64,000 nt of DNA, from assembly GCA_019973155.2 (NCBI GenBank), contig BPQB01000004.1:992001-1056000 (forward strand), in the 5' to 3' direction. The translations under genes and the position numbers were made by a program. Source of the stretch: Phanerochaete sordida (Eukaryota > Basidiomycota > Agaricomycetes > Polyporales > Phanerochaetaceae). Position 1 is the stretch's first letter. The number at the start of each line of letters is the position of its first letter. Below, in pieces: positions 1-63,715 of the stretch. The notes under the pieces are model-generated. The model was not told the origin of the DNA, searched no databases, and was given only the letters and a program-made list of their open reading frames with translations.

Positions 1-2779
1 GAACGCAGAGAAAGAGCAGCTGCAGTCCGCGTCGAAGGTCCAGAGACTCGAAGGCAGGATCAGTAAGTCGACGGGCGGTACTCTTGCGCGACAATCACTC
101 TTACACTTGTGGCCAGGCGAACTGGAGACGCTGCTATCAGAGATGCAGCTAGCACTCGATGTATCTCGTTCCCCGTCGACAGCGCTGTCGCCCTCTTCAT
201 ACGTGAGTCTTGTTGCAGTTCATGGCCGCGACTACATGCTCACGGAACAATACGCGTCAGAGCATTTCCCAGATGGCTGGTCCATCATGTCAATCAATGT
301 CGCCGAGCAATGTAAGTTTGCAGCTTTGCCTCTGATCCGTTAGACTGACAAAAGCTGCGCTCAGACCCTATCCCCACATACTAACGGATCACACTATTAT
401 GATACGACCGGTAGCTACGAAGATGATATGGCCCTCGCCGTCGCCGCCGTGTACTCCAGGACTCCCAGCTCTCTTGTGCCGCATACGGAGCAGAACGCCG
501 TGGTAACTGTGACAAATAGCAGGAAAGCGCAATTACGAGCAATGGGCTGGCCGGAACAGCTTCCAGACCCTCTGGTCGCGAAACACCTGTAAGTCATGTT
601 AATTTCGTGGGCTGCCTACATAATAACCCCCTATTCTAGCGTTCATGCATTCTTTGCCTTCAACATGCACGCCGGGCGACTCTTTCACGGCCCCACATTT
701 CTCGCGTCGCTCAACCTGCACCCCACGGATCCGCGCTTCCCCATGATCGGTGTTCTACACGCGATGTGCGCTGTCGGCAGTCTGTATACCGCAGATATAC
801 CGCAGCCGCCCATGCAGCCGAGAGCCCAACAACCCTGTGAGTCAAATACGTGCAGCCTTATTTATCCCCGCCGTTCATTTACCTTCGATTGGGCAGATAA
901 TGGGCAGTTCTTTCACGTAGACGAGCTATTTCACGGCAGGTGGCGGGCATACGAGCGCAGACCCGACTCGTTTTCAGAGGAGCAAGCACGACGGGCCAAG
1001 ACCGCCACGGAGGAAGCTGTCGATTTAGGAGATCGCCTAGTCGAATGCTTGCAGGGTACGCCATTACTATTTTCTGCGCCGGCCTATTCTAATTTCATCT
1101 GCATATAGCACAGACTATTCTAACCTGGTTCTATCTCATCCAAGCGCGGTAAGTCATCTGGTAAATTGACCGTCGTGTCATCCACTAACCAGCGCGTCGA
1201 TAGGTGGGCGGAGGTCAGTTTGAGACCGTGCGAAGTGACGCAGTCGGCTAACGGCTGGATTTAGTCATATACCTCCTCCGGACAGTCTCTTCGATGCGTC
1301 CCGCCCTGTGGACTCAGTATAGCTGCGCCGTTCCAGTGTATGACCGATGCGGTGGAGCCGGGGAAGACGCCTGCCATCATACACGAGGCGAAAACTGTCA
1401 TCGAGGACGAGACACGGCGGAACGTGTTTTGGATCAGTGCGTCTGCTCACCCGCCGTGAATTATGAAAAGCTGACATTCTTGTGCTAGCGTACGCCCTGG
1501 AGCGTCAAGCAGCCTGCGGACATAGTTTCGCGATGGCGATGGACGACCTGGACGTCTGCCAGCTCCTGCCTGTTCGCGGCGACACGTTCGAGCAAGGGGT
1601 ACGACACGCATCTCTCGTTCTGCACATGGTCACCGCTGACTCGTCTGGCACAGCTCCCAGTCGACATCCGCGAGCGGCAGTGGTCGCACGACAAGCGCAT
1701 GTTCCTCTCGCATGTCGCGAACCAGACCGACTCCTTCGTGCTCTTCATCAAGACGTCGCTGCTGCTCTCGGAGGTGAAGAACTTCGGCCTGCGCTACCGC
1801 GGGCGGTACTACCGGGGCGAGACGAGCATGTACGCGCCGAACCAAGTCCTCGAGTCGCCCGCGACGTACGACCCGCGCCCGTCGCCCGCGTTTAAGGAGC
1901 TCGACGCCCTCATCGCGGCCTTCCGCCCGTCCTTCCCGCCGAACCTCCGCAACCCCGTGCAAGACGAAATGGTCGACGCGTACCTGTATGCGGCGAACTG
2001 TGGCGCATATCTGTATGTATCTCTCCACCCTCACTTATTACGGAGTGCTCACAACCTGGATCGCAGGGCGCAGATCCTTCTGCACGAGCCCCACACGCGC
2101 ATGACGTCTCTGCGCGACCCGTCGGTGCCCAAGCTCCTCGCCGCCGCGCGCAACATCCTGGACCTCATGTATGCGATCAGCGCCACGAGCTACGACCTCT
2201 CGCTGCTCGACCATCTGCCCATCGTACGTCCCGTCTCACCCTTTGCACGATAGCTGCTGATTGATGGTACGCCAGCTCGCCTGGAACGGATGCGGCAGAG
2301 TCTTGATACGGGCGCTGCGCGTGGCGATCGACACCGATAACCTTGAGCAGTCGCTTGTCTTGCAGGCCGAGATTGCCTTCGTGCAGTACGTCCATCGATG
2401 CTTAACCAAATTCCATTGTCTCACAGGCACACTCTCGCACAGCTCCATGCTCTCCAAGGCCGGCGAACGCATGCCCCTCGCATGTATGCACTCTTCCCCT
2501 CTTCCCCTCCCTCCTCCCGCTGACCCGCTTACCTACGCAGACCGCTACAAGAAGATGGTTTACGACTTCCTCGCAAACCACTGCGGCCCGCAGTACGTCG
2601 AGTCGCTCCCGCAGACGTCGTACCACCAGGGGCGCTTCCCGTCGCCGAACGACGGCTTCTACCCCGCCGCGCCCCCGCCGGGCAGCGGCACGCTGTACGC
2701 CGGCGGCATGTACACCGCGGACGACCTCGAGCCGCCTGCACAGATGCATGCGCAGGTGCCGCGGACGCATCTTGGTTAG
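1..2779 (+). CDS. Fungal-specific transcription factor (fungal_trans domain), 5' partial
   Basis: A multi-exon gene already open at base 1. The first exon reads as a charged coil leading to ELETLLSEMQLAL, the linker that follows a Zn2Cys6 cluster in this family, so the DNA-binding domain lies upstream of the window. The core matches the paralogue at 18600-21825 segment by segment: HAFFAFNMHAGRLFHGPTF, LHAMCAVGSLYTADI, ETRRNVFWI, then FVLFIKTSLLLSEVKNF and LRNPVQDEMVDAYLYAANC. These belong to the fungal_trans (middle homology) region of Zn2Cys6 regulators. The stop is TAG at 2777-2779. Introns are 45-75 bp with normal GT-AG ends. The junctions near 290-430 and 1200-1320 could not be joined in one clean frame, so either unusual splicing or decay there is possible. 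The role is presumably RNA polymerase II regulation; the target is unknown. Confidence 0.8.
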
Positions 2780-5700
2780 AGTTTGGCTGGATGGAGCAGT
2801 TTTGTATGGATTTGTAGCGTAGTAGTCCGCTAATGTAGCTCGAGCCCAATTGGTTGTATTATCCGTATCACCCCCTCTCAGCATATCTTTTCTCCAGCGA
2901 TGTCTGAATATAGTCCCGTAGAGATGAGTGTAATGGATGCATGAGACAGGAAGGATCATAGCAGGGGTGTAATCCGGGACGCCCTCGACGCCGTTCGTGC
3001 TTTCGACATGATGCACCGTGCGCACTGCACTCATATGCAGGCGGGCCGCGGCAGCGCGGGCCCTCGCACAAGCGCCGCCTCGTCCTCTCCTTCCTCCACT
3101 ACACCAACAACCGCGTCCGAGCACTTGGCGACCCGTGCGAGCCACTCCGCGGCGTGTGATTCGTGTACTGCGAGAGCGAGCGTAGACACGCTGTGACACG
3201 CGTGCGCCACCGTCGCTTCGTACACCGAGTACGGCTCCGTTAACGGAGTCTGACTGATGCCAGAGGTCGAACTGACCGTCTGGTGCTCTACCCATCGGAT
3301 GCAGGTACGGTTAGCCATATTTCCACGCCACTCATGCTACAGACGGCTCCATACAGTCAACCGTAACGCCACCTATCTAGCTTGTCCCTCATGTTGTCCG
3401 AAGGCTGCCGCTCAACCACACTGCGGTCAATAAGATCTCCCGCGACGAAATAAGCAGACCGCCGGCCGCTCTCCGCAGCGTTCAGCTAACGTACAACGCC
3501 GGACGCAGGCGCACACGAACGACACACGAGCATGTGCTCCCTCCGTCGACCTTCTCCGAAGCACCTGCAGGCGCGCCGCGCCCGCCCTTCGCAGCGCCCC
3601 TGGCCTTCTGCAGCACGACAAAGTTTTAGCCTGTGCCACCGATGACGAGAACGCCCGGCGTCGCGCGCGCCGCTGACGCAGGCCTCGCCCGTGCGGCGGG
3701 CGCTGCGGCCGCAGAGCGCGAACCCTCCTCTCCCTGTCCCCTCCTGGGCTCTCCTGCGCTGCCCTGGCCGTCCTGGGCTCGCAGCGCAGGGCCGCGCACG
3801 CATGTCGCGCTACGGCCTACGCTAAACGGCGCCGCCTGGGCGCGCGGGCGGAGGATCAGCGTTGCGGCCGCTGCTGCCGCCTGGTGCCGGGCCCGCCCTT
3901 GGGCCTTCGCAGGGCTGCGCGGCGCCAGGCGTGCGCACGCCGTGCTGCAGCGCCAATCGATCGTTTCGCAGGACGATGGACAGGCTGATTGCGCCTCTGC
4001 CGGCAGGGCTGCCTTTGCAGCAGCGCGTTTGTTCTGTAGTGGTGCAGGTGGGCTCAGGCTGCGGAACGGTGAGCAGCACGAGGCCGAGCGCTGGTCGAGT
4101 TCGTTTCTCCCGCTTTGGGGGACGTTCTGTCTGCGCCTCCAGAGTGCAGGGTGCACCCAGCTGGCCTGCACGGCCTGAGGGCACTGTGTGTGGTCCAGGT
4201 CTAGTCATGCGAGGGTCAGTCTTCGCAGCCAGGAAGGACGAAGACAATTGAACCGGTTGCCGCTCGGTACGTTCTTACTGCTACTCCTGTAGACAGCAAG
4301 TACTGAAGCTTTGAATGCGAGGCTGGCTTCTCAGTAATATAAGCTATTGCTCCCACATGCCTTCAACTAAGCTACCCATTAAACAAAGTTTATCGCTGCG
4401 CTCAAAGTTCCGTGTTGTATGGATCTCGCGCGCTCCCTTAACTTCGAGGAAACAGGCTCCCGCTCGCCATCTTCCCTGTCGCCTTCCGCTCGAGAGCTTC
4501 GTGACCGGGACAGCACTCAACGTCAATATATCACGCTCACGCAGATGTCCGCCGGGCACATCACGCTCCGCAGGGGGCAGCGCACCTCCCGGCGCGTTCT
4601 CTGCACAAGACCTGCCTCGCACGGCCTTCCAGTTGTGCACGCACGAAGCGCACGCGCGGGCGCCATGGAGCCGCCGCGCGCGCTCCCAGCGTCCAGCCTG
4701 CGAAGCCGCAGATCCCGGCCGCACAATGAAATCGCCTCGTGCAGCGGGCGAAGGCGCGAAGCAGCGTCGGGCTGTGCGTCCCTACACGGCCTGCCTCGCA
4801 GCGCTGCCGCTGCTGTGGGTCCCGGCAGACGCGAGCGCGGTGCAAGACGCCGCGGCGGCCCTCCCCAGCTGTGCGAACATGTGGGGACCGGCCTCGCCCC
4901 TATGACCGCACGGCGCGCCCAGCGTTTTGATTTTGGCGGGCAGAACGTAAGCCTTAGGTACCCAAAGAGCATGCATCTGCAGGGCCCTGCCCTCCCAGCA
5001 GCGCGCCCCCAATCCGGCCTGCTCAGCGAGCACGCCCGGCGTTATTACACCGTCCAATACATGCGCACCCCGCCGGCAGACGCGAGACACACGCAACAGG
5101 CCGTCTGGGGCTCTCGCAGCCTGAGCACGTGGGCAGCGGTTGCCCCGCTTGCTCAGCACTTGCTCAGCCCGCCCAGCCAACGCCGGCGGATTCAGCCAGA
5201 GGGCACGGCCGAACAGCCCCCGACGGGCCCCCGGCGACAATAGCGGAGGGCAATACAGAAAGGCTATCACAGCGGTCCGCGGAGGGCTCGAGCCCCAATC
5301 GGATCGCCTGGGGACGCGCGAACCCTGCTCGAACCTTCGGATTTTGCGTGGTATATCGAGTGTCGCAATTGGATCGGCGTGAGTACCTGCGGTGCGCGTG
5401 GGACGGCCCCGGGGGCTGAGGGTCGCCGTCAGATGACGCGAGCGGGCGAAGGCAAGCTGCGTCAAGTGGGCACTCGCGAATATTGGGCGCAAAGGGTCCT
5501 TCGACGCGATATTGGCTGCGGAGGCGTCGAGAGCCGAGGCATATTCGCGTGCTGCGCAGCCAGCGTCGGACACGAGGCTCCCACGCCACGAAGGCTGAGT
5601 CGCTCCGCTGCGCCAGCCCTCATGGTCACGAACAGAACGCCGCACAGAGCAGATGGAGAGAACAAGACTTATATTTGTTTCTTTACACTTTGTTACACGC

Positions 5701-5820: not shown

Positions 5821-6517
5821 CCGCGAGCAATAAAAACGCAAGTCTAGCCGACAATAAAAAAGTGGGGGACGAGCACAGAGCAAAGATGATGAGACCGTTT
5901 GAGTGGACAGCAAGATGAGAGGAACCGGAGAAGAGCAAATGTACAGTAAAGGCACAGCAGACGAGACTCGGGGACGACGACAGCGGGAGCAGAGGGCGTA
6001 GAGCGTTCGGTCGGCAGGGAGCGGATGGATTTTGGGTGTGCGGCACCGGTGGCGGTGGAGAACGGGTTCGTCGGAGGGAAGACGCGGTGTGCGCGCGGGG
6101 GAAATGATTACGATTAATAATGGTCGCGAAAAGCGAAGGAAAAGGCGTGACTGCGCCGGACCAGGCGGATTATGGGCGAAAGGGCAGAAGGAGCGTACGG
6201 TGTTCTAAGGGTCGAGAATAAAAGAGTGACGTGCTGTACGAGGGCAGAGTGAGATAGATGGGCAGGAGATACGCGTGTGTTGTTAATGACAGTGTGTATG
6301 CGTCTTCTAGGCTGTAGATGGGAAACCAAAATGAATGTGTGTGGTTGCTGGGAGCATTGAGATAGATGGGCAGAACGAATGTGCGTTTCATGGGAGTCGA
6401 GTTGTCCGGCAGGTCCGAGTGTAGTCACGGCGGCGTAGATTGTGTAATTTTGAGATGGCAGTGGCGCACAGGGATGGTGCGGGTGAACACGGTTGTGGGC
6501 CAGGGATGATGCAAGAC
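5821..6517. other. 3' flank of the minus-strand gene at 6518-8875
   Basis: Noncoding as far as I can see. It holds two AATAAA motifs on the plus strand around 5828 and 5853, and two copies of a 16-base word (listed separately) that would lie in the 3' UTR of the neighbouring minus-strand transcript. Confidence 0.4.
6250..6373 (-). repeat. Two copies of a 16-base word in a probable 3' UTR
   Basis: tgagatagatgggcag occurs exactly at 6250-6265 and again at 6358-6373. Read on the minus strand this is CTGCCCATCTATCTCA, about 145 and 250 bases past the stop codon of the gene at 6518-8875. Confidence 0.6.
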
Positions 6518-8875
6518 CTAATTGACATAGTACCAGGCGAGCGTGACCCTGCCGACGCCCTTGATGTGAACCTGCGCGCTCACGCGGCAAACCTGTCAAA
6601 CCGCTCAGCAACATGCCAACTCTAGGAACGCAAGGCACTAACCATGTCAGCGACTTCCCAGTCGCGCCAGTAGACGTGCAGGCTGCCGTCAGGCTTGCGC
6701 TCAAAGCGGCGCACTTCGCCGAACGTCTCGCACCACTTCATGATCGCGTCGTGCCGACGGCGCAGATCGCGGTCGCGGCGAAAGGCGGCGAGCTCTGCGT
6801 TCGCCTCACCCTCGGGCAGTACCTCGGTGCTGAGGCAGGTCACGACGAGTTTCTTCTTGCGGCGGCGGACCCGCCGGCGGGCGAGCGCACTCAGGAAGTT
6901 CGTCGGCTCGGGCTCGGGGTGGAAGAACGAGGCTGTGGGCTGCTTCGGTGACGGGAGGGGAAGCGTGGGCTTCTCCGGCTCATCGTCGTCGAAGTCGACG
7001 AAGCTCTCCGGCTCCGCAGCGGGCGGCTCGGGGAGGTAAGACGCTGGTGCGAACGTCGGCGATGCAGGGCAGAACGGGTCTAGCACTACGTCCGGCTGCG
7101 AGTCCGCCGGCGTAGGCAAGGTCGACATCGATGAGGTAGTCGACATCGTCGAGGTCGATGTGGACACCGAAAGCGGCGGCGGGTACGTGCCGGAGCGGCT
7201 AGTCCTACGCGAGCTCAGCGCCAGCGAGAGCGTCGATGCCGAAGCAGGGCTAGAGATCGTATCCGCCGGCGACAACAGGCTGATGTCGGGGTGCTCCGCA
7301 GTAACTGGGGTTGACGGCACCGTGTCGCTGCGTTTACCGAGCGAGCCAGCACGGCCGCGCGAGATGAAGCTGAGTAGGCGGCTGCGCTTCGGCTTGATCG
7401 GTGGCGAGGGCGGCGTCGCTGGCGCAGAGACCGTTGGGCGGCCCTGTGATCGCGGGTCCATTGAGTCGATCGACCAGCGCGAGTTGCTGGGGATCGTCTC
7501 TTCCTCGAGCGTTACGGGAGGAAGCAACACCGAGTTCATTGCTAGTGGCGACGAAACTGACGGTGTGAGCGACACAAGAGAGGGCTTGTGCGAGATACTA
7601 TGGGTAGAGCTGACACTGATCGGCGATGCAGGGACGTGTGCGAGCTCCGCAAGCGTGCGCAGCTGAGGCGAGGACGTCGACATCGACAGACCGAGGACTG
7701 GGCGGATGCGCTTCGTCTCGGTCTCCATGGTCCGCTGCATCTCGACACTGCTCTTGCGCACAGGCGGGTGGGCGATGACCGTACCTTCAGAGCTCGCGCG
7801 GTCGTCATCAGGCTGAACAAGTACGCCGCTGCGCTTGGCGCTCTCCGAGGAGCGCTCTTCAAGGAGCGAAAGCGTTGACGAGATCGACGGGAATGCAGCA
7901 TGGTGCTGCAGTGACCGGGATGCGCTCATGTTCGCCGATGGTGGCCTAGAGCGCGGCAGAGGCTGTGAAGGAGAGGACGAATTCGACATTGAGACGCGCG
8001 GGGACGACGAGGGTGTCGACGCGGGGGTCAACTTTGGGGTCGACGGCGGCGAGGTCCTGTACACCGAGGGCGGTGGCGGCAGCGGCTGCGAAACGCGAAG
8101 AAAAAAACCATCGTTAGCACCAATCACGAACGGGGTAACATGCGCAGCGAGGAGCGCGGCAGAACGCCGGGTGGTCTGGACGTGCCAAAAGCTTGTCGCT
8201 GGCTAAAGCAGCCGCCGCCTGGGAAACGCAGATGCCCGACAGTGTTGCCTTCTGTCGAGATCTGGGCAGTGTGGCCATCACCGGGGAAACCAAGTGATGG
8301 CGCTGCGCTGATCGCTCGATGTGGACGTGTGCGGGTTCAACGGATTGCCCGGACTCGAACCTCCACACGACACGCAGGCTCGACCGTCGAGGCTCTCGAC
8401 GACGGTGACGCGTCGCCATGCGGCTCTGACGAAATGTATCTCCATGCGGAGGAGCCGTTGCGCCTGCGCGACGCGTCCAGACGCGTCGACCAGGTGGAGG
8501 CACGCTAGAAGCGCACGGGAAAAATTGCTCACCTTGTCACGCTCGACTCCACTCAGCGTAAACGCGGGACGCGTCGGGCTCGCGGGCTGCGAGGTCGAGG
8601 GCGAGAAGAGGGTGGGGTCGTACATGGACGGGTCGCAGGCGTCCGCCTCCTCGTCTGATATACGGGCGGATGTAAGTAAGCAAAGCGGGACAAGACAGCG
8701 GCAGAGACTTGCCCCAGGAGTACGGCGTTGCAGACGCGGGCTCTGCTGCGGCCTTGCCGGTGAAATCTGCGTCCGTGGGCATGTAGTGGATCGAGTCACA
8801 GAGGGAGAGGCGGTGGAGCAGTTCGAGCCCGTCGAGTCTGTGGTCGCAGGGGGAGCCTGCACGGTAGTCGTCCAT
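6518..8875 (-). CDS. Ser/Pro-rich protein with an RRM-like C-terminal end, function unknown
   Basis: Starts at 8875 with MDDYRAGSPCDHRLDGLELL. The first intron appears to be GC-AG (8655-8712, donor GCAAGT), joining PYSW to DEEADACDPSMYDPTLFSP. A second intron follows GVERDK. The exon after it and its junction to the long last exon (starting PLPPPPSVYRTSPP near 8089) are uncertain. About 400 residues are low-complexity Ser/Pro/Thr with scattered acidic patches. The end is compact: a basic RRRVRRRKKK stretch, a charged helix, then SLHVYWRDWEVADMVCRV and VHIKGVGRVTLAWYYVN, produced by a clean 50-bp intron at 6593-6642 and ending at TAG (6518-6520). That tail has the alternating beta-strand feel of an RRM-like fold, but I cannot assign the family. 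A nuclear or RNA-related role is speculation. Confidence 0.65.
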
Positions 8876-57277: not shown

Positions 57278-58089
57278 GGGGCAGTGTCGCGTCTGTGCAG
57301 CTATCTGGCATTGCTATTGTTATCGATTTCGCTTCGGACACAGGCCGGATATGTGGGCGCCGCACAGAATCTGTGGTCCTGGGACGGCTGCGTGCTTTGC
57401 TCGGCGCGTGATGGCTCAGGTCCGGGTCCTTGGGTGAGATGTGCCACGATGGACCACCGCGAGGACGTCGCTAGGCGAGTCGGAAGACATTGCGCAGACA
57501 ATAGTCTACTCCTGAACGTGGGAGCGCAACAACACCTGCCTTTTCTGCTCAGCGCCGGCCTGTCACTTCGAGCTCGCGCTGGGAGCGGTATGTTCAGCAT
57601 CATGATCTTCCGTGTACTTACAAGGATGCGCGAGACCTTGTACTCTTGCTCGCCGCGGTACGATTGGGGTTGAAATATTCTGCAATGTGAGTGTGTGGGC
57701 GCATATGTGGTCACTAGCACTAATGCGAGTTGCCTCAGTTGCTGTAGCTCCTCTCGGACTGGTAAGCCTTGCGCGTGCCACCGTAAATGCCACCCACTCG
57801 GACTGCGGACACAAGCACGCATGGCCCCGGAACGATCGCAAGAAGGCACTCAAGGTTTGACGCATTGCCGAACGGTGGTTACGGCCTGTCAGATATGCTC
57901 CAGCGTCATGAAGAGAGTTTACAATTGGCATTGACAGCCCTTTGAACGCGCGGCTGCTGCGGGCCAACCTCGCGGGACAAGGACGTCCGCGCAGAGGCAG
58001 GAGGCAATGCACGGGTATAAGGCTCGTCCGGCCCCTGTGCGAGCTCGCACAATCGTCCATCATACCCACCCAGTATCTCGCTCGACACC
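57278..58089. other. Promoter region of pseudokinase gene 1
   Basis: About 800 bp. Contains a 28-base block at 57885-57912 that is repeated with two mismatches at 60973-61000 upstream of gene 2, and a TATAAGG at 58016-58022. No coding sequence supported. Confidence 0.6.
57885..58022 (+). promoter_or_regulatory. Promoter module shared with pseudokinase gene 2, copy A
   Basis: The block at 57885-57912 (cctgtcagatatgctccagc gtcatgaa) is followed by ggcattgac, then gacaaggac, then ggcaatgcacgggtataagg. Order and spacing match copy B at 60973-61104. The TATA is 74 bp before the ATG. Confidence 0.65.
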
Positions 58090-60547
58090 ATGGGATTTTG
58101 GACGCGGGCTACGTCCCGACCCGCCGTTACAGCAGTAGAACTTGGTACCGCCGCAGCGAGCATGGGCCCCACACCCGTCGCCGGAGTGTTCCAGCTTCTT
58201 AAGCAAATCCAGCAGATCGCACGGGATACGAAAAACAGCAAGGTGCGCTGGGGTAACTGTCTGCCGCTGCAGCATATTGACACCGGTATGTAGGCGGAAT
58301 GCGCGGAAGTTGCAGAGCTGTGCGAGCAGTACGCGGATGTGTTCGCTAAGCACGTCGAAGACATAAAGGGTACCGGGCTGCAAGAGCCTGTGAATGATGC
58401 CCAGAAGTGTGTGCGCTACCCTGTTGTGACCTGCATCTCCACTCACGAGCGAGGTACTGCAGAACACTCGCCGAAGCAAAAGCGAAGGTCGAGGTCTACA
58501 GTACTTGGACATTCTGGCGTACAATTTGTGCGACAAGCATCCATGGCCCGATGGTGTTTTGCTCACTTTGAGTAGGGTACCGTGAAACACTGGAGGCAGA
58601 CCTGAAAAAGAGCAAGAATGCCATCCAAGTGGCGAAGGACAAATACCTCGTGTGTTCATGCTCTCCGTCTAAGTCTGATACGGCATATAACTCATCGCGC
58701 TTCAGATCGCTGCCAGTGTGAGCGCCTGCAAGGACCGCTGTGCGAGGGCTGGGGACATGTTGCTTTGCACGGAACTCGCACAAGTCATGGCACTGCGGCT
58801 CGACCAGTCGCTTGCCGAATTGACTCCTGACGAAGCAAAGCAACTGGTCGAGCTATTGGAGAAGGTACGTGATCTGATCCTCCTATCCCAGCGCAGCTCA
58901 CGTCTCGCAGATGCTGGATGTCTTGGCCAGCTCAGACAACGGCAAGGACGCCAAGCAACATATCGGGAGCGCGATGATAGATCGGGCCGAGTTCAATGTC
59001 ATTGTCAAGCATATTGACCAAGCCCTGAAGGAAGTGCGAAGTTGGACTGGTGTACATCATGAATACAAGGTCCTCACTGGCCACATCAAGCTCAAGCAGC
59101 CCCTGCCCATCCCAAGCGACTCGCACTACACCGAGGTGTATCGTGGGTGGTATGCGAATACGCAGGAGGTGCGATCAACAGACGATCTGACGTCTGAGGC
59201 TCGCTAAAGAGGCACTGACAGGTAGCATTGAGGCGCTTCGTCCTGAGGTTGGACGCCAGCAAGGCTGTTTTCGTATGTATCTCACACGCTTTGGTGTTGA
59301 CGTAGTCCTGACATGGATTGACTCGAACAGCGCCTGCAGAAGGAGGTCACGATTTGGTCGCGACTTGTTCACCCTAACATTCTTCCTTTCATCGGCATCA
59401 TTGACGTAGAGATAGGTCGTCAAATGATCCCAGCCTTGGTTTGTCTCCCCGTGGTTTACGGCAGCAATTACTAACGGGATTTTTCTCCAGGTATCACCGT
59501 GGCAGGAGAATGGCAATATTGTGAAGTAAGTCAAAATTAATATCTATGCATAAATCGGCTGCTCGAGCCTTGTGTTCAGTTATACGCAATACCATGTCGA
59601 CTACAACAGATTCAACCTGGTACGTATATGTCACGTGCGTATCTTGGAGCGTGACTTCTCACGACGGCCCGGGTGCCCATGTTCTTGTAGCTTGCTGGGG
59701 CCGCTGCAGGCCTCGATTACCTACATAGTCAAGGATATGCTCACGGAAATGGTGAGTCTCGGTCGATAATCTTACATGTCAAATACAGTCCGCTGACGAT
59801 CGCATCCACAGTCAAAGGGGTATGTCGTATCACTCCACAGAACGCGCTGACCGTACTGACCACGCAATTTATCTTGAACCGGAAAATCATCAGTCTAATA
59901 TCCTCGTTAGAGCCGTCACGGAAAAGGTGAGTTTGAATGTGAGCTCAAATGCGTGAATGACTAAAATTGTGTGGTAGGTCGAAGCTGTAGTCGCAGACTT
60001 TCACATGGCGAAAATCATGCAGGACGACCTCACCAAGGACCAGTCCGTCGCGAATACAACAACACGAGACACCGCACACAACTGGATGGCTCCGGAGCTC
60101 TTTGCCCCGCCTGAGGTGCATGAGGAGCCCACAGCTGAGGGAACGGAGGTCATGAAGAGTGTAGAGGTCACGAGCACTGAAAAGTTCAAGGCACAAGAGG
60201 TCAAGCCGACCGCCAAGAGCGACGTGTGGTCCCTCGGGATGGTCATCCTAGAAGTCCTTACGGGCATGGAACCTTTCCAGAAGCGCATTCAGATAGGAAG
60301 CGAAACGCGCATCAAGAAGGTGAACCCCAGCACGATCCCTGGACTCGTGGCACAAGGGATAACGCCTGAGCGCCCTGTCGGAAATTACTGGATTACGGAC
60401 CCAGTATGGGAGCACCTGAAGCATCAGTGCTGGCAGAAGAAGCCGGAGCTTCGCTCAGACATGGCGACAGTGCACAAGCGTTTGTTAGAACTCGCCGCTG
60501 CCCATGACGTCGCACATCCCCCTCAAGTCCAGCTCGTTACAGTTTAG
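58090..60547 (+). CDS. MLKL-like pseudokinase 1 (N-terminal helical bundle plus degenerate kinase domain)
   Basis: Many small exons. The N-terminus MGFWTRATSRPAVTAVELGT, then MGPTPVAGVFQLLKQIQQIA, is followed by helices ECAEVAELCEQYADVFAKHV, LQEPVNDAQKTLAEAKAKVE, VYSTWTFWRYRETLEADLKK, a pattern like MLKL/HeLo-type four-helix bundles. Two more helices (ALRLDQSLAELTPDEAKQLV; DRAEFNVIVKHIDQALKEVR) form a brace-like linker. The kinase fold starts at PIPSDSHYTEVYRGWYA without a glycine loop. Beta3 is VALRRF (Arg for Lys, codon 59231). HRD is HGN (59742-59750) in YAHGNVKGSNILV. DFG is DFH (59996-60004). WMAPELF and SDVWSLGMVILEVLTG keep the kinase core. Stop TAG at 60545-60547. Catalysis is therefore unlikely; a signalling or membrane-active switch is inferred from family resemblance. 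Confidence 0.8.
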
Positions 60548-61163
60548 TATTATATTACAGTGTCTACCCACGAAACGTTACGCATCGCTGCATACGATTT
60601 GCCCTCCCATGAGATGCACTGTGTTCAACCGTGGCTGCTCTGGCTGGCATTCGTCCGGAATCTGGCCATCATAGATACCTTCCATATTTATCGCAGCACT
60701 TTGTGATATGATCAGGAGCGCTTCCCCTGGATACCTTGTACTCGAAAACGACGAGGTTCGAGCTATTGTCCGATATATAGGTCTGTGGACACATGTGTGC
60801 CAGTTGCTGAGACTAACCCGAATTATTGTTGTGCGGCAGCCTACGCCCAACGCCGCTGCTGTGGCCTGGCTGGACATCATAGCTCCAGCGCTGGTGGTAC
60901 AATAAGAACTTCCCGCAGTACCCACGCAGAATGCAGAGGGCCATCCGCTTACGGCGGAGGCGGTGCTTGCAACCTGCCAGATATGCTCGAGCGTCATGAA
61001 AACCCTGACAGCTGGCGTTGACATCGCGTCGCGCGCGACACGGACCGAGTGCGCGTGAGACAAGGACAGCCGCCTCGAGGCCGGGGCAATGCAGGTGTAT
61101 AAGGATCGCCGGGACGCGCAGGCAGTACATGCACAGTTCCCTCTCCGCGCACGACCACACAGC
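60548..61163. other. Spacer between the two pseudokinase genes
   Basis: Holds the 3' flank of gene 1, including a 16-base word at 60672-60687 that recurs after gene 2, and the promoter of gene 2. No coding sequence supported. Confidence 0.6.
60973..61104 (+). promoter_or_regulatory. Promoter module shared with pseudokinase gene 1, copy B
   Basis: cctgccagatatgctcgagc gtcatgaa at 60973-61000, then ggcgttgac, gacaaggac and ggcaatgcaggtgtataagg. TATAAGG at 61098-61104 lies 66 bp before the ATG. Confidence 0.65.
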
Positions 61164-63447
61164 ATGACGCTGTCGACGTTCATCACCCACCCGTACGCCG
61201 TGAACGCTGTCAACGCCGCGAGCGGCGTCGCCAGCCTCTCGCCCATCCCTGGCGTCTCCGTCGTACCCTCGCTCATACAGCAGATACAGCAGATCGTGAA
61301 GGAGGCGAAGAACAACCAGGTGCGCCACGATAAATCCCTTTTCTTTGTCGCCCCCTTCTGACGCACCTGGGCGAGCAGGAGGCATGCCAGACGCTGGCAG
61401 AGAAATGCTCAAACTACGGCGAGATGTTCGCGAAGCACTACCACGAGATCCAGGGCACCGCGATGCATGCACCTGTCAAGGATGCAGAAAGGTGCGCGCG
61501 GCATTCTCTGTGGCTCTCCAAGCTTTCTTATACGGCAAACGCAGATTGCTCAGAGAAGCTGCGGAGAAGCTGCAAGTGTACAGCAACTGGGGCTTCTGGC
61601 GCACTTTATGTGAGTATGTAGCGCGTCTTCATGGGCAATTCTAATGCTTTGCACAGTCAATGGCGATAAGATGCAAGCCGATCTGAAGGCCAGCGCCGCC
61701 ACTCTCGATAGTGCCATGGCGGACTTCAGCGTAAGTAGCTGGTGGACCGGCCCAAGCGGACTAGCAAGGTGCTGATAAAGTATTAGGTCACTGGCACTAT
61801 ACGCAACTATACCGAGGTGAGGACTATGAACGTCAATGTCAGCGCACAGTTGGCCGAACTTCAAGACGGCGTGAGCGAGCTCCTCCAACGCAGGGGCAGC
61901 GCGTCGACTGAGGACGACATTATATTTGCGCAAAAGGCGAAGCAGGTATTTTCTTTCGCCCGCATCTCCTTATTGTCTTCTCTGATGATCTCCAACAGCT
62001 GCTTGCGACCGCTGACGACTCCAGGCTCGAGATCGCGGGCATGCAAGTGAACCAGACGCAGTTCAACGTGATCGTGAAGGAGATCACCAAGACCCTGAAG
62101 CAAGTGCAAGGACGCACTGGCGTGGAACACAACCTCACTGTACTGGAAGACAAAGTTACACTCAGATCGACCATACCGATCCCCAGCGAATCTCACTACA
62201 CGGAGGTCTATCAAGGGTACTATCAGTTCACGCAGCTAGTAAGCTCGTTCCTACGAATGTGATTAAAATCGTTGATGAACATGGAATTGGGTAGGTTGCG
62301 GTACGGTGCTTCCGTAACAAGACCGATTCAGAAAAAGCAGTCAAGGTACGCCTGGCCATCTTTTGGCCTTGCATATATCCATACAAGCACGATCGTGACG
62401 ATGTTATGCAGCGCTTCAAGAGAGAGACCGAACGGTGGTCGCAACTCCACCACAAGCACGTTCAGCCTCTTATCGGCATCATGTACGTTACGATTAGCAA
62501 AGACCTGACCAACGCGGCGCTGGTACGACATTCCACCTTCGTCCTGATAGGGTGTTCATCTGGCACTGCGGCAGGTATCGCCGTGGCAAGAAGGAGGCAA
62601 TATCCGGCAGTAAGCGTCAGTATAGGTGCTCGGATGCGCATACTGATGTGTCCAAAGATTCATTCAGGAACATGTTACACACAATAGGTATTACCTGGTA
62701 TGTGGGTACCATCTCCGACTGATCTAGCTGTGCTCATATTGCGCTAGCTTGCAGGAGCTGCGTCAGGACTCGACTATCTACATAGTCAGGGGATGTCACA
62801 CGGTAACAGTAAGTGTTGCACAATTATCTATATCGCCTTGTACTGACTAACTGTTCGCAGTTCGAGGGGTGCGTGAACCGACTTGGCTCGAGACGCATTG
62901 ATCTGACCTGGCTTCTATTACCAGACGAATGTTCTGATCACCGCTGAGGCAGGTCGCTCAGCATTCTACTATCTCCAGCCCCGATTGACATGCTCTCTAG
63001 GGCGAAGCTGTCATCTCCGACTTCCACATGTCAAAAATCATGAGCGATCTCACCAAAGACTCGTCTGCGATGCACACCGTGACTCGCGACACCTCGCCCC
63101 GCTGGTCGGCGCCAGAGCTCATGATGGGGCAGAACAAGACACCGAACCCGAAAAGCGACGTGTGGTCCTTCGGGATGGTCATCCTGGAGGTCCTGACGGA
63201 CGAGTTCCCGTACGCGAGCTGCAAGAACCCGAACCAGGTCCCCATCATGCTCATCCAGCGGAAAATGCCGCCGCGCCCGCAGCAGAACCACTGGGTCACG
63301 GACCCGGTTTGGCGCCTCATGGAGGACTGCTGGCGGATGGACACCGAGATTGCGCTGCGCCCGGACATGGCGACCGTGCGCGACCGCTTGGCAGAAGCCG
63401 CCGACGACTACGCCACGCGACCACCGCCCATCCCCCAAGAGATATGA
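61164..63447 (+). CDS. MLKL-like pseudokinase 2 (tandem paralogue)
   Basis: Start MTLSTFITHPYAVNAVNAAS, then VSVVPSLIQQIQQIVKEAKN. Helices EACQTLAEKCSNYGEMFAKH, EAAEKLQVYSNWGFWRTL and DLKASAATLDSAMADFSV correspond to the bundle of gene 1. The linker includes LAELQDGVSELLQRRGS and NQTQFNVIVKEITKTLKQVQ. The kinase region begins PIPSESHYTEVYQGYYQFTQ. Beta3 is VAVRCF (Arg for Lys). The catalytic loop is MSHGNIRGTNVLI (HRD to HGN, and the loop Lys also replaced by Arg). DFG is DFH at 63019-63027. WSAPELM and DVWSFGMVILEVLTDEFP follow, and the end is PPPIPQEI with TGA at 63445-63447. Intron positions match gene 1, including an 8-base exon at 62861-62868. One intron (from 62949) appears to use a GC donor. 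Confidence 0.8.
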
Positions 63448-63715
63448 GCATGTCAAGTAACTCTGGAGTTTCTCACACCCATCCCCCACACTCACTCTCG
63501 GATAAGTTTCGCTGCTCTTCACGGTCTGGGTTCCTAGATACCTTCCATATGCGGCATAGGATACTTCTCTGATACCATCATACTCGTCCCCGATCACCTC
63601 TAGATTTCTTGAGCGCCGAGCTCTGGCAGAGGCTTGTAATTTAAATCATGACCTGCTGAACCACATCCTTCTCAGTCTCTTCACGCGTGCACGCCCCCAC
63701 GACCGACACGGACCC
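63448..63715. other. 3' flank of pseudokinase gene 2 and next promoter
   Basis: Contains tagataccttccatat at 63535-63550, identical to 60672-60687 after gene 1. Confidence 0.6.

Follow-up and report, generated by a model that had tools for sequence, protein, structure and literature searches.

Tandem genes for a predicted helical bundle and a pseudokinase in Phanerochaete sordida: candidates for an MLKL-like fungal executioner

Animal MLKL kills cells by breaking their membrane, and what is known of necroptosis-like death in fungi comes mainly from ascomycetes, in which NLRs trigger HeLo proteins via amyloid motifs. Could a pseudokinase switch, and not an amyloid, control such a bundle in a fungus? 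This question can be asked of an MLKL-like tandem gene pair, A and B, of the basidiomycete Phanerochaete sordida, found in the window studied here (64,000 nucleotides of contig BPQB01000004.1, assembly GCA_019973155.2, contig positions 992,001 to 1,056,000, forward strand; positions below are those of the window unless another contig is named). The explanation that we favour, with about as much doubt as confidence, is that A and B encode two paralogs, in tandem, of an MLKL-like executioner type of basidiomycetes, in which a BaMLKL/HeLo/MLKL bundle extended by a further first helix (hG) is followed by a brace and a dead kinase, and which would work by an MLKL-like mechanism.

Gene structure and loss of catalytic residues

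Manual splicing resolved positions 58090-63447 into two complete genes in tandem on the forward strand, built to a common plan of 14 exons each (Table 1), so that the initial annotation of this interval as a tandem pair holds. B is identical over its 527 amino acids to the deposited P. sordida protein P0001. The exon phases of the two genes are identical and nine of the 14 exon lengths are equal; all introns are GT-AG, save one GC-AG intron in B (donor after 62948), and in both genes an 8-nt microexon falls in the catalytic loop. Residues 25-575 of A are identical to the deposited protein P0003, which starts 24 residues later, at Met25. Because residues 1-24 of A (58090-58161) align with the starts of B, of the protein P0002 and of a paralog on contig C67, A probably starts at 58090, and P0003 would be without the conserved first helix.

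Over 248 ungapped sites of the N-terminal part the two proteins share 36% identity, and over 271 sites of the kinase part 54%. The ratio of nonsynonymous to synonymous substitution rates (dN/dS, NG86) is about 0.40 and 0.30 in these parts, with dS near saturation at about 1.4, and the pair therefore looks like an old duplication under apparent constraint; the overall ratio by LWL85 is 0.37.

Pfam and fold comparison concur in assigning a kinase fold to the C-terminal part, the structural matches listed being tyrosine kinases. A, B and P0002 have another sequence in place of the glycine loop and carry arginine for the VAIK lysine, HGN for HRD and DFH for DFG (R278, HGN 370-372 and DFH 393-395 in A; R273, HGN 366-368 and DFH 386-388 in B); APE, DVWS, the alpha-C glutamate and the aspartate of DFG remain. 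The kept aspartate and glutamate would suit unorthodox active kinases in which other residues do the catalysis; since A and B have neither the lysine nor the catalytic aspartate nor the glycine loop, we give this alternative hardly any credence, and the pseudokinase status first proposed for this kinase fold is borne out. A carries an insert of about 28 residues after APE. The activation segments of both proteins retain a T(T/V)TRDT stretch, which could be a phosphorylation site; that of B is threonine-rich (TVTRDTS, 405-411).

A genome search with the N-terminal and linker region of the C67 paralog gave 12 matches at an expectation value (E) <=1, all in five loci; as the search was exon-wise, the subfamily comprises at least these five. 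None of the five genes found has the catalytic aspartate, and four of them sit in two tandem pairs. The C67 paralog has the motifs VAVK, HGN and DFF, and the second pair, on contig C22, has VAIK with HGN/DYG and VAIK with HGT/DFG when read exon by exon. A homologue search with the N-terminal alignment (X-padded) brought up three proteins only.

Might A and B be ordinary members of the expanded Agaricomycete kinase families, now decaying? The loss of their catalytic residues would agree with this, as would the 146 PF07714 matches in the genome (counted exon by exon) and the kinase expansion described in Agaricomycetes as FslK (PMC3937382; here and below, statements on published work refer to the parts of each paper that were compared). 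However, frames and splice sites are intact over 14 exons in both copies at a dN/dS of about 0.34, an upstream block is conserved, and the catalytic aspartate is absent across the five genes found, which makes decay very unlikely.

The N-terminal bundle and its relatives

The domain model of B places helices at residues 10-23, 33-47, 52-76, 83-103 and 107-172, the last being helix 4 fused with the first linker helix. In the full-length model (A4), whose mean predicted local distance difference test score (pLDDT) of 49.8 makes it informative for the kinase part alone, this helix divides into 115-134 and 137-170, and the candidate linker helices are 137-170, 178-191 and 208-229. Where two linker helices had been claimed, three are weakly predicted; a helix of the linker with an FNV motif is also present in the C67 and C22 paralogs. 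The N-terminus of B is predicted to form a four-helix bundle, as the initial annotation had supposed from a run of amphipathic helices, and the fold is compatible with the MLKL/RPW8 type. One further helix not included in that description is predicted ahead of it (10-23); it is poorly resolved (pLDDT <50), and A, B, P0002 and C67 can be aligned over its region. A P-x-P step separates this extra helix from helix 1 in A and B and, with a K-N-N...C..LA..C pattern, is conserved. The order bundle, linker, pseudokinase is found in both proteins.

The resemblance to the MLKL/HeLo family was examined with profiles. The N-termini of A, B, P0002 and C67 were joined in a four-member profile (A1), and those of the four pseudokinases, six NLRs and the C72 gene described below in a wider profile (A8), also built without C72 (A9). 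Against the sequences of the PDB, the wider profile finds MLKL in rows 2-6 (E 1e-4 to 1.6e-4, spanning the whole bundle) and in two further rows (E 0.0022 and 0.011). Only a designed protein, in row 1, ranks higher, and the best match to a natural protein is thus the MLKL executioner domain, not an unrelated coiled coil. With all sequences of the profile reversed as a control, MLKL appears in none of the 43 rows.

The relationship to the NLRs of the same genome is clearer. The family profile aligns with their N-termini by hhalign at a score of 41.6 (P 3.2e-6), while 60 column permutations reach at most 18.5. The genome has 46 NACHT matches at E <=0.001, 14 of them on contig C36 and six on C64, and 13 of the 20 NLR loci inspected show, by eye, a first exon that combines a helix with a P-[GAC]-[LI] step (L030, L032-L036, L039-L043, L048 and L049); the other seven showed none, L037 and L038 being judged by pattern scan only. 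The NLR profile was made from seven of the 13, with exons joined by eye, and six of these entered profiles A8 and A9. By their layout, these NLR N-termini are presumably the published BaMLKL domains. By hhalign, the N-terminus of C72 scores 34.7 against a combined profile (null maximum 20.4), 25.5 against the four-member profile (20.3) and 22.7 against the NLR profile, the last hardly above its null maximum of 21.4; these nulls are approximate.

Several results qualify the likeness to MLKL. The Pfam model of the MLKL N-terminal family (PF22215, MLKL_N) has no match in A, B or C67, and among the four profile members matches P0002 alone (E 1.4e-4, below the cut-off); in a scan of the genome it gives three matches (C72, E 0.007; C36, E 0.05; C149, E 0.38), none of which passes the cut-off or lies at A or B. 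Without C72, the wider profile finds MLKL at E 0.16, below unrelated proteins, so the significance of the match hinges on this single paralog. The reversed profile reaches designed coiled coils at E down to 2e-9 and natural proteins at 0.016, which reveals a helical bias. Searched singly against the PDB, the N-terminus of B has a best E of 0.75, the four-member profile one of 0.085 (to a designed repeat protein, with 14-3-3 next; MLKL in none of 25 rows) and the C72 N-terminus one of 0.022 (a bacterial proteasome activator; MLKL in none of nine rows). Foldseek gave no match of the B domain model at E <=0.001, with NRG1.1 at rank 8, the Rx CC at rank 17 and MLKL absent from the best 50 of 611 matches; MLKL turned up in a second fold comparison only, and designed helical proteins score equally well. 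The sequence case for kinship with MLKL is hence good in combination and, for A and B taken alone, not proof.

The low significance, the missing MLKL_N match in A and B, the designed proteins and the biased control would all fit a bundle that is an unrelated helical region, alike to MLKL by convergence. Against this stand the alignment with the NLR N-termini far above permuted controls, the separate MLKL_N matches in P0002 and C72 (both below the cut-off), the conserved P-x-P step and K-N-N...C..LA..C pattern, and an MLKL alignment that covers the bundle from end to end with the wider profile. We consider convergence improbable.

Other families were also compared. No HeLo- or HELL-type Pfam family was among the hmmscan matches of A, B and the other profile members, a scan that remote homologues may escape. 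PF17111, scanned as a HeLo-like candidate, is named PigL_N, and its one match in the genome (E 0.14) was of no use. PF25055 (DUF7792) weakly matches three of the four N-termini (residues 37-136 in B; best E 0.042) and is a possible relative. At C66:38858-39136 (L019), a stretch with two internal stops is weakly similar to the start of B (25% identity, E 0.66) and may be a chance match or a decayed relative.

Pseudokinases frequently serve as scaffolds, which suits the strongest rival: A and B would be true BaMLKL/MLKL relatives acting as scaffolds or decoys, whose bundle makes homotypic contacts with NLR or kinase partners of the same domain and breaks no membrane. The similar domain at the N-terminus of the genome's own NACHT proteins speaks for it. 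So does the N-terminal end of B: over residues 1-36, 18-residue windows have a hydrophobic moment of 0.0-0.17 and a mean hydrophobicity of 0.34-0.47, which does not clearly indicate a membrane-inserting amphipathic or transmembrane helix. Moreover, the extra helix sits before the helix that is critical in MLKL, RPW8 and HeLo (PMC9815663). In contrast, the order of the parts is that of an executioner, common to MLKL, AtMLKL and Pm13 (PMC10951266). We hold this homotypic role to be a serious possibility, if a less probable one than an executioner.

Related loci, flanking blocks and neighbours

The gene on contig C72 encodes a domain like MLKL_N (Pfam E 1.5e-4, below the cut-off) that lacks the extra helix, followed by a kinase whose motifs appear intact in six-frame reading (GQGGFA, VAVK, HGD, DFG), making it a possible active kinase partner. 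At the C149 locus, no kinase motif was seen in the open frame that follows the bundle-like exons, and this gene is a possible stand-alone bundle protein.

Both genes of the pair are flanked by repeated blocks (Table 1). The 23-nt core of the 40-nt upstream block occurs twice in the 40.8-Mb genome (<=3 mismatches), both times here. The block with GTATAAGG, for which a TATA role is putative, recurs before B. The 16-nt core of the downstream block has two exact copies in the genome, only here, and one copy with one mismatch elsewhere; read backwards as a control, it gives one genome match. Since A and B agree at only 46% of third codon positions, function seems to have conserved the flanking blocks, a sign of joint regulation of the two genes; the blocks may also be mere relics of the duplication.

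Table 1. Coordinates of the gene pair, its domains and flanking blocks, and of related loci (window positions unless a contig is named)
Feature	Position	Strand	Details and basis
Gene A	58090-60547	+	575 aa, 14 exons; open frame, phases as in B; manual splicing
Gene A, exons 1-7	58090-58242, 58294-58406, 58463-58527, 58576-58649, 58706-58864, 58911-59168, 59222-59272	+	
Gene A, exons 8-14	59331-59438, 59491-59525, 59580-59619, 59691-59751, 59812-59819, 59894-59926, 59978-60547	+	
Gene B	61164-63447	+	527 aa, 14 exons; manual splicing
Gene B, exons 1-7	61164-61319, 61379-61491, 61545-61609, 61657-61730, 61787-61945, 61999-62238, 62295-62345	+	
Gene B, exons 8-14	62412-62522, 62575-62609, 62658-62697, 62748-62808, 62861-62868, 62925-62948 (GC donor), 63001-63447	+	
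A, extra N-terminal helix and predicted four-helix bundle region	58090-58709, introns included	+	aa 1-137; alignment with B
B, extra N-terminal helix and predicted four-helix bundle	61164-61796	+	helix aa 10-23 (low confidence), bundle aa 33-~138
B, linker ('brace'-like) helices	61797-62134	+	aa 141-235; full-length model, low confidence; conserved motif
A, pseudokinase domain	59080-60547	+	Pfam, alignment, residue positions
B, pseudokinase domain	62135-63447	+	Pfam, alignment, residue positions
40-nt block upstream of A	57873-57912	+	85% identical to block upstream of B; repeat search
40-nt block upstream of B	60961-61000	+	repeat search
Block with TATA-like GTATAAGG upstream of A	58003-58031	+	59-87 nt before ATG; repeat search, upstream alignment
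Same block upstream of B	61085-61113		83% identity
Block TCATAGATACCTTCCATAT downstream of A	60669-60687	+	
Same block downstream of B	63532-63550		95% identity
Tandem pair of same subfamily	C22:454000-463000 (L024)		genes ~3 kb apart
Gene with MLKL_N-like domain, then kinase	C72:39500-43200 (L053), ~1504-3450		
Bundle-like exons (NNKRECFRLAKRC pattern)	C149:20500-28000 (L054), ~5960-7120	reverse complement	weak MLKL_N match

Upstream of the pair lies a gene that, by eye, resembles those for major facilitator superfamily (MFS) transporters, and downstream a short gene and then one that, also by eye, is presumably FHA-like. No NLR was seen among the neighbours read by eye. Further off, on the window's own contig (C4:908901-971719, 20-83 kb before the window begins), kinase matches with canonical HRD/DFG where read appear to be a local expansion of another type, not of the A/B kind.

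A possible mechanism and comparison with known systems

For A and B as executioners, we infer a membrane activity, a switch, cell death and a biological role as follows. By analogy with MLKL, the pseudokinase and the brace would most likely hold the bundle inactive until a signal shifts the conformation of the pseudokinase: either its activation segment, rich in Thr and Ser, would be phosphorylated or a partner would bind. Once free, the bundles would oligomerise on a membrane and permeabilise it, and cells would die locally, as part of defence or of non-self recognition. A bolder version, a complete amyloid-independent necroptosis-like circuit, would have C72 as a RIPK3-like activator of five pseudokinase executioners (the two tandem pairs and the single gene), and a pair-specific promoter block would co-regulate A and B, which would act together; this version seems to us quite unlikely. 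A direct test is feasible, A and B being short and intact and the fungus a white-rot species.

To our knowledge no RIPK3 is known for A and B, unlike animal MLKL, from which they also differ by the extra first helix, the tandem arrangement and other catalytic losses (K to R, HGN, DFH). HET-S and HELLP, the HeLo and HELL executioners, would by the literature compared have the bundle superfamily in common with A and B, whose C-terminus is a kinase fold and not an amyloid motif. The pair may bear on whether the MLKL architecture of animals and fungi arose by common descent or by repeated assembly.

Among the closest published relatives are the MLKL_NTD homologues of basidiomycete NLRs, BaMLKL, whose models show an additional N-terminal helix hG before the bundle (PMC9815663). 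A and B resemble them in the predicted helix preceding the bundle and in the match of the family profile to NLR N-termini of the same genome, and differ in that their bundle is fused to a linker and a pseudokinase, their C-terminus being a kinase fold by Pfam, whereas BaMLKL is fused to NACHT/NB-ARC. The authors ask for experiments before cell death is assigned to N-terminally extended Goodbye-like domains, and report amyloid-like motifs in Agaricomycete NLRs too (PMC9815663). In plants, AtMLKL and wheat Pm13, with a role in immunity, share with MLKL the order bundle, brace, kinase, and would share with A and B an MLKL_NTD and a three-helix brace besides the kinase-fold C-terminus; Pm13, in contrast, retains all key kinase residues, and the parts of that paper compared mention no extra N-terminal helix for it (PMC10951266). 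Homologues of the MLKL family (TCDB 1.A.105) in Glomeromycotina are likewise fungal, but belong to early-diverging fungi and carry Sel1 repeats (PMC8778642). The FslK kinases have all conserved kinase sub-domains and are likely active (PMC3937382), a description that sets apart A and B, whose catalytic lysine and aspartate are replaced.

Among the literature on MLKL in fungi, basidiomycetes or Phanerochaete, mostly titles and abstract openings, no title deals with these genes; one paper, which treats incompatibility in basidiomycetes, mentions Phanerochaete as well as MLKL (PMC8229728). The idea of a HELL-type bundle on a kinase or pseudokinase is already in print: a 2025 review in Cell Death Differ. 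notes HELL domains within such proteins, naming no protein, species or gene pair in the parts compared with A and B (PMC12881547). To this the present analysis adds the detail of a predicted bundle of the hG type joined to a dead kinase, of two tandem pairs, and of two further genes in the genome, a kinase-competent MLKL_N-like relative on C72 and a possible stand-alone bundle gene on C149.

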